A stretch of DNA of 64,000 bases from Dromiciops gliroides (lineage: Eukaryota; Chordata; Mammalia; Microbiotheria; Microbiotheriidae): contig NC_057861.1 of NCBI RefSeq assembly GCF_019393635.1, positions 90,254,827 through 90,318,826 of the forward strand, written 5' to 3'. A model generated the notes under the pieces. The model worked only from the letters and a program-made list of their open reading frames with translations, was not told where the DNA came from and ran no database searches. Position numbers and translations under genes: made by a program. Position 1 is the stretch's first letter; each line of letters starts with the position of its first letter. Positions 43,667 to 44,659 of this stretch are shown one piece after another.

Positions 43667-44659
43667 TTAGTAGACACTCTTCCACAGTTTTATTGTCTTA
43701 TCTTTTTCTAGGGCAGCTGATGCGATGGTGTTTTCTTTTGGGTGACAAGCTGTTGAGATCACTATATCTGTGTGTCCTTGTATCTTCTGCACAATCTCTT
43801 CTGTATCAATATTCCAAATGTAAACCAGATTGTCCTCTGACCCTGACACAATTAGTTCTGGGTTAGTCTCAGGAAAGTTAGCAAAAATACAGTACTTTTC
43901 ATTCTTATGGCCAGTATATGTCTTCAGGCACTTTCCTTTTCCATAGTCCCACAGTTTAAGTGTATTGTCCAGAGTTGCAGCAAGAATGTACTCTCCATTT
44001 GGAGTGAATCTCACAAAAGAAACTGGAGGGTTCTTATCAGAATTAATTGTTCTAATATATTTACATGCTTCTATATCCCATATTCGGCAGAGACCATCAT
44101 AACTGCTCGACACCAACAAAGATCCATTCCAGTTAGGATGAACAGCTGTTACTGGATCTGAATGAGCAGTGAAACACTTGAGGCATCTTCCGGTTTTCAC
44201 ATCCCATATCCTCACACTTTGATCGAAAGAGCCCGAGTAGACGAGATTGGATTGGGGACTGAAGTTACAGCAAAAGACATAATTACTGTGTCCCTTTAGG
44301 GTTTTTCTGCATTTCCCTGTAAAACAGTGCCATATTTTAAGAGTTTTGTCATCTGAAGCAGACACAAGAAGTTGGGAATCTGATGACCAAGCAATGTCTG
44401 ATATTCCCAGTTTGTGACCAATTAGTTTTTTCAGGTATTTCCCATCATATGCTCCCCAAATTTTAATTTGTTTGTCAGCAGAAGAACTTGCTAACCATTC
44501 TCCATTGGGACTATATTTGACTGCAGATACTGCTTTAGTGTGCCCTTCTAGAGTGAATTGTAGCTGATAGTTGGGTTTTTCAAGCTCAAACCGTTTGTTC
44601 TCATTGGTAGCAAGTGCTGTACTGACTCTTGTCTCCACTTTCTTCTCTCCTGTTGCCAT
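43667..44659 (-). CDS. WDR5-like single-exon retrogene, intact 330-aa seven-bladed WD40 protein
   Basis: Uninterrupted 330-codon frame ending in TAA, with a strong start context (A at -3, G at +4). The protein aligns without internal gaps to human WDR5 (334 aa) from KPNY onward, after an N-terminus four residues shorter. By eye it is about 80% identical over the WD40 domain. WDR5 is the scaffold of MLL/SET1 H3K4 methyltransferase complexes: its WIN pocket binds arginine peptides (H3R2, MLL) and its WBM groove binds RBBP5 or MYC. Residues matching WIN-site A47, S49, A65, S91, D107, F133, Y191, Y260, C261 and F263 are kept; S175 is Thr. The WBM side differs: K227, V268 and Q289 correspond to Glu223, Glu264 and Asp285. 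The Asp of one IWD motif is His111. Parental WDR5 has introns, so this is a retrocopy. Human WDR5B is also an intronless 330-aa copy; orthology is open. No poly(A) or target duplication is visible, suggesting age. An old copy with no stop suggests selection. Confidence 0.88.

Follow-up and report, generated by a model that had tools for sequence, protein, structure and literature searches.

The window, a stretch of 64,000 nucleotides (C1:90254827-90318826 of a 3.30-Gb genome), contains at positions 43667-44659 of the minus strand an intronless WDR5-like coding sequence, here called R1, which runs unbroken from ATG to stop and encodes 330 residues. R1 belongs to the WDR5 beta-propeller family (Beta-prop_WDR5; Pfam ID PF25175), which it matches over profile positions 2 to 296 of 296 with 560.1 bits (cut-off, 250). 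Its AlphaFold2 model, built from 60 sequences, has a mean pLDDT of 91.1, with values below 50 only at residues 1 to 25, and superposes with the WDR5 structure (PDB ID 2h68_A) with an rmsd of 0.7 Å over 303 columns. Alignments to WDR5 from the PDB and to the parent gene in the same genome place residue n of R1 at WDR5 residue n + 4 in the propeller. An earlier note on this DNA had described a single-exon WDR5 copy with particular residues at the WIN and WBM sites, and the open reading frame and both alignments bear this description out. Elsewhere in the window, positions 51800-52297 (+) hold a ribosomal protein S10 copy that is open and full-length; residues 46 to 210 of its frame match eS10 residues 1 to 165, and it is presumably a processed copy.

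The parent WDR5 gene lies at C2:428.46-428.49 Mb, where 13 coding exons are joined across 12 GT-AG introns. Its protein is identical to primate WDR5 at 326 of 334 positions, with all eight differences before residue 31, and the propeller (residues 31 to 334 as aligned) is identical at 304 of 304 positions, so the propeller changes seen in R1 arose in R1. The homology between R1 and this parent continues across the exon joins and extends into a region homologous to the parental 3' UTR (43117-43518, minus strand), where the local alignment scores 189 and the best of 50 shuffles scores 31. As expected of a retrogene, R1 lacks the introns of its multi-exon parent and has carried UTR sequence along. 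A run of 14 A residues (43030-43043, minus strand) may, by its position, be what is left of the inserted poly-A tail, and no target-site duplication was seen by eye around R1. On the other side, blastn detects the last 10 or so nucleotides of the parental 5' UTR (44660-44669, minus strand), and beyond about 10 nt above the ATG the local alignment score of 21 is not significant (shuffled maximum, 23). Since the 5' homology ends there, the parental promoter was probably not carried along.

At least three further intronless WDR5 copies are found in this genome. R2 (C2:251202877-251203830; locus L014, 4868-5869, minus strand) is intact and open. R3 (C2:481.96 Mb; locus L015, 3842-4846, plus strand) is a young processed copy, 98.1% identical to the parent and carrying two stops. 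The parental UTRs and an A-run are present, and the AAGAATGATTGATTCA repeats on either side resemble a target-site duplication. R4, at C2:614.7 Mb, is a dead copy with 16 alignment gaps and many stops.

Compared with the parent, R1 has a dN of 0.144 and a dS of 0.883, giving a dN/dS of 0.163 (bootstrap 0.108-0.233; 0 of 2,000 bootstraps at or above 0.5), and the propeller alone gives 0.146. For a neutral copy of a protein that itself stays unchanged, reasoning gives an expected Ka/Ks, relative to the parent, of at least about 0.5. R1 is under purifying selection, as computed against the parent only; if dS is halved per side, the rate on the R1 lineage is about 0.33, which is constrained, yet much faster than WDR5. 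R2, with 0.063 against the parent, is under stronger constraint than R1. The two broken copies serve as controls and give 0.58 (R4; bootstrap 0.39-0.89) and 0.92 (R3; a count of just 4 synonymous changes and 13 others, the bootstrap interval being invalid through undefined ratios). R1 carries 77 synonymous and 86 other changes at the sites shared by the parent and R4; the corresponding counts for R4, at sites shared by the parent and R1, are 21 and 89. In a neutral simulation with 0.44 substitutions per site, none of 1,000 frames stayed free of stops and the best amino-acid identity was 0.497; R1 keeps 240 of 304 propeller residues, the other 64 differing from WDR5. The earlier note had named a dN/dS near 1 and broken frames in sister species as grounds against its reading. 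The ratio, taken against the same-genome parent and not between species, is far from 1, and full-length proteins are predicted in the Tasmanian devil and the bilby.

These two proteins came from a protein search with R1, which yielded 403 matches, of which the best 120, as listed, were examined. Among the matches listed, the closest is a “WD repeat-containing protein 5-like” from Sarcophilus harrisii, the Tasmanian devil (P0002; 329 residues, 88% identity), followed by one of the same name from the bilby Macrotis lagotis (P0003; 327 residues, 80% identity), and the other 118 of these 120 are WDR5, WDR5B, WDR5-like or unnamed proteins with at most 79% identity. These matches point to a marsupial as the most likely source of the genome, with the devil nearest among the named sequences. 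No canonical 334-residue WDR5 turned up among the 120 listed clusters of the 403 matches, so copies of R1 in koala, possum or opossum could be missed. The R1, devil and bilby proteins have 39 derived propeller residues in common, making one insertion, older than the split between dasyuromorphs and bandicoots and bilbies, the most likely origin. This split lies roughly 60 million years back.

The WIN site of R1 is identical to that of WDR5 at A47, S49, A65, S91, D107, F133, Y191, Y260, C261 and F263, and only S175 is replaced, by Thr. The earlier note had listed these residues with S175 as the sole exception, which the alignments to PDB WDR5 and to the parent reproduce. With 10 of 11 residues kept, R1 appears on this count to have the WIN site of a canonical two-site WDR5 hub. 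The devil protein keeps the same 10 residues, S175T is common to all three species, and the bilby protein also carries Y191F, a substitution named in the title of a PDB entry (PDB ID 9jwv) for WDR5 Y191F with the KIF2A WIN motif. Set against the rest of the family-conserved propeller, the retention of WIN residues in R1 is not above background (P 0.28).

The second site, the WBM cleft, is where R1 departs from its parent. The published WBM residues are N225, Y228, L240, F266, V268 and Q289 (PMC11275010 and PMC10880924, available excerpts), to which the MYC contact adds L249 and a flanking positive charge (PMC11308778, available excerpt); K227 is not among the WBM contacts named in the excerpts of these papers. 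R1 keeps four of the published six and changes two, V268E and Q289D, and because of these two changes we do not file it as a canonical two-site WDR5. The codon for Glu264, equivalent to V268E, is GAG at 43868-43870, and the Glu is found in R1, P0002 and P0003 only among 123 aligned sequences (R1, the parent, R2 and the best 120 of the 403 matches). Asp285, equivalent to Q289D, is encoded by GAT at 43805-43807 and occurs in 3 of the 123 (R1, devil and bilby), and Glu223, equivalent to K227E, is encoded by GAG at 43991-43993 and occurs in 4, being less special as one more sequence, P0058, has it. All these codons are read on the minus strand and numbered on the plus strand. The codons and the alignments agree with the earlier note, which had reported that K227, V268 and Q289 became Glu, Glu and Asp in R1 and had placed the V268 codon at plus-strand 43868-43870; the possibility it raised, that a misalignment had put the changes in the wrong place, is not borne out by the alignments to PDB WDR5 and the parent. 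A fourth change, K291E (Glu287; GAA at 43799-43801, minus strand; Glu in 4 of 123), is absent from that note. All four changes are identical in R1, devil and bilby.

In addition, the blade-6 turn (43853-43873, minus strand) is remodelled from SVTGGKW in WDR5 (residues 267 to 273) to PETNPEL in R1. G270N and G271P are found in all three species. At the positions of K272E, W273L and S267P, the devil has Q, Q and S and the bilby Q, L and S. Within the seven residues of the turn, five family-conserved positions are altered in all three species (permutation P 0.0049). The groove residues N225, Y228, L240, L249, K250 and F266 are retained in R1, suggesting that a weak WBM interaction may remain; the devil and bilby proteins, too, have Y228, K250 and F266. 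The six published WBM residues show no significant enrichment in changes (P 0.20 for R1 and 0.14 for all three species), and a list of nine WBM residues gives P 0.12 and 0.067, respectively. R181W was considered as a further groove-loss change and set aside, as R181A is reported to affect RBBP5 little (PMC3921674, available excerpt).

The charge of the cleft was calculated as the sum over 22 turn positions around it, and 17 of the 123 sequences were dropped for gaps, leaving 106. A cleft charge of +4 is found in 91 of the 106 gap-free homologues, and the parent, R2 and the three WDR5B proteins examined all have it. The values for R1, devil and bilby are -4, -3 and -4, corresponding to shifts of -8, -7 and -8. 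The lowest value outside these three is 0, in a Timema WDR5-like protein (P0080), which is the only other one at or below 0 among the 106. When the set is placed on the remaining six blade pairs, of which two supply 19 to 20 positions, the shifts lie between -2 and +4. The WBM-facing turns, which contain 20 of the 168 family-conserved positions, hold 8 of the 19 such positions changed in all three species (P 3e-4), and among 50,000 random sets of 22 positions, 2 reach a shift of -7 or beyond in each of the three species. Of the measures tried, these wider turns and the charge sum are the only ones to stand out; since the 22-position set was drawn up after the changes had been seen, its P values are descriptive. 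The net charge of the whole protein is +5 in the parent and +6, +4 and +4 in R1, devil and bilby, and that of the propeller is +5 against +5, +4 and +2. A global acidification of R1 is thus rejected, and the nearly unchanged whole-protein charge indicates that the reversal is local to the cleft. It goes beyond the three changes pointed out in the earlier note. In summary of the comparison with the parent, the fold, the propeller residues counted above and 10 of the 11 listed WIN residues are the same, whereas R1 differs by its lack of introns, a rewritten N-terminus (with a net loss of four residues), the charge-reversed WBM cleft and faster protein evolution.

WDR5 is a target for cancer drugs, and V268E is a standard laboratory substitution for separating its two faces. 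The available text of one study reports that V268E removes more than 50% of RBBP5 binding, leaves KMT2A bound and fails to rescue WBM-dependent growth effectively (PMC9584608); on its own, the substitution causes a partial loss. In Xenopus embryos, V268E is described to reduce Myc binding and to expand the neural crest at levels where wild-type WDR5 represses it (PMC12863299, available excerpt), so the statement in the earlier note that this mutation impairs MYC binding holds for the identical substitution. R1 carries exactly this change in nature and is apparently a natural version of the function-separating laboratory mutant. Unlike the laboratory V268E and N225A mutants, it adds K227E, Q289D, K291E and 60 other propeller differences, and keeps N225. 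The WBM consists of a hydrophobic core and a flanking positive charge which pairs with MYC EEEIDVV (PMC11308778, available excerpt), and RNAs, HOTTIP and many others, bind in the same cleft (PMC3921674, available excerpt).

We favour, with moderate confidence, the reading that R1 is a WIN-competent, WBM-defective retained WDR5 retrogene, derived from an old processed retrocopy. The retrocopy would have turned into a genuine gene on the branch that gave rise to dasyurid-like marsupials and the bilby. Its propeller, complete with all seven blades, should still accommodate arginine motifs like those of H3, MLL/SET and KIF2A in the central WIN pocket. For acidic WBM motifs, to which that of RBBP5 also belongs, weak binding by R1 is predicted. 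As the MYC and RBBP5 motifs are acidic and the cleft binds RNA, the acidic cleft of R1 should repel all three. R1 could then occupy WIN ligands without bridging to RBBP5, MYC or RNA, and would compete with or tune normal WDR5 where both are expressed. We infer for R1 its expression, the loss of ligands, the WIN binding and the competition. The three-species conservation and the charge reversal of the cleft strengthen the separation-of-function reading of the earlier note, which is plausible on sequence grounds. Impaired WBM binding fits the V268E experiments (PMC9584608 and PMC12863299, available excerpts), whereas the wording that R1 cannot bind WBM partners is too strong. An effect through methylation is not favoured, as H3K4me3 was similar at the promoters examined for all WDR5 mutants tested, including V268E (PMC9584608, available excerpt). 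The two sites may also be coupled, as suggested by F266A, on which the excerpts of two papers disagree: one reports a WIN peptide weakened 93-fold (PMC10880924) and the other little effect on MLL1 and H3 affinity (PMC3921674).

The same conservation allows for a different function of the cleft, which would hold a basic or otherwise different partner, turning R1 into a charge-swapped, neofunctionalised hub with a new WBM specificity. The identity of the four acid-ward changes in three species, the retention of Y228, K250 and F266 throughout and the purifying selection on the frame fit this idea, but there is no candidate ligand, L240V and L249V in the bilby and the variation at residues 272 and 273 resemble relaxation, and three sequences are too few to tell constraint from shared ancestry, so that we regard it as unlikely. 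The species-specific changes within the 22 positions (L240V and L249V in the bilby, S267P, N287D and the differing residues 272 and 273) mean that the WBM changes could also be drift after loss of constraint.

Still lower in probability is an ordinary subfunctional duplicate, such as a testis-restricted WDR5 with modestly weakened WBM binding which does the same job in another tissue or at another time. This is a common fate of retained retrogenes; R1 keeps N225 and F266, and WDR5B is described to be regulated differently from WDR5 (PMC11275010, available excerpt). The loss of more than half of RBBP5 binding and the ineffective growth rescue caused by V268E alone (PMC9584608) speak against a modest weakening, as do the three further acid-ward changes R1 adds in the same cleft. 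That R1 is a processed pseudogene, open by chance, is highly improbable: it is a retrocopy and probably came without the parental promoter, but it has accumulated no frameshift or stop despite a dS of 0.88, its dN/dS is low, full-length proteins are predicted in two other marsupials, and the dead copies in the same genome look quite different.

If R1 is the WIN-competent, WBM-defective retrogene that we favour, its lineage is a natural experiment on WDR5 function through WIN alone, with V268E kept for apparently tens of millions of years under purifying selection. A bolder proposal, which we hold only tentatively and consider doubtful, is an orthogonal WDR5 in Australian marsupials, with the usual arginine pocket and a charge-inverted cleft that would exclude RBBP5, MYC, KANSL2 and RNA and recruit a new basic partner; a WIN ligand could then be routed to a different complex.

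A survey of 40 genomes reported a separate WDR5B, located between FAM162A and KPNA1, only in eutherians, and an apparently single WDR5 gene in marsupials (PMC11275010, available excerpt), to which R1 runs counter. Searches of open-licence PMC papers listed no description of the R1 gene. Like WDR5B, R1 is an intronless retained WDR5 retrocopy, but WDR5B keeps the named WBM residues (PMC11275010, available excerpt) and, in three proteins, the cleft charge of +4. Of the 31 propeller residues that are derived in WDR5B (consensus of three proteins), R1 has 3, which disfavours orthology, and a search of the 64-kb window for KPNA1, made without a control, gave no match at E ≤ 1. R1 is, judged from these residues, most likely a retrogene independent of eutherian WDR5B.

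The intact copy R2 has 30 CpGs, compared with 6 in the parent. It shows the changes A47G and G89E, the latter two residues from the WIN residue S91 and also present in eutherian WDR5B; orthology on the strength of this common residue is rejected, as R2, like R1, has 3 of the 31 WDR5B derived residues. A protein search with R2 (28 proteins) found no R2-specific protein, and its relatives may be merged into WDR5 clusters. The only derived residues common to R1 and R2 are I144V and S175T, which makes a separate insertion likely. More than one birth of a WDR5 retrogene in mammals is suggested, namely, WDR5B, R1 and probably R2.
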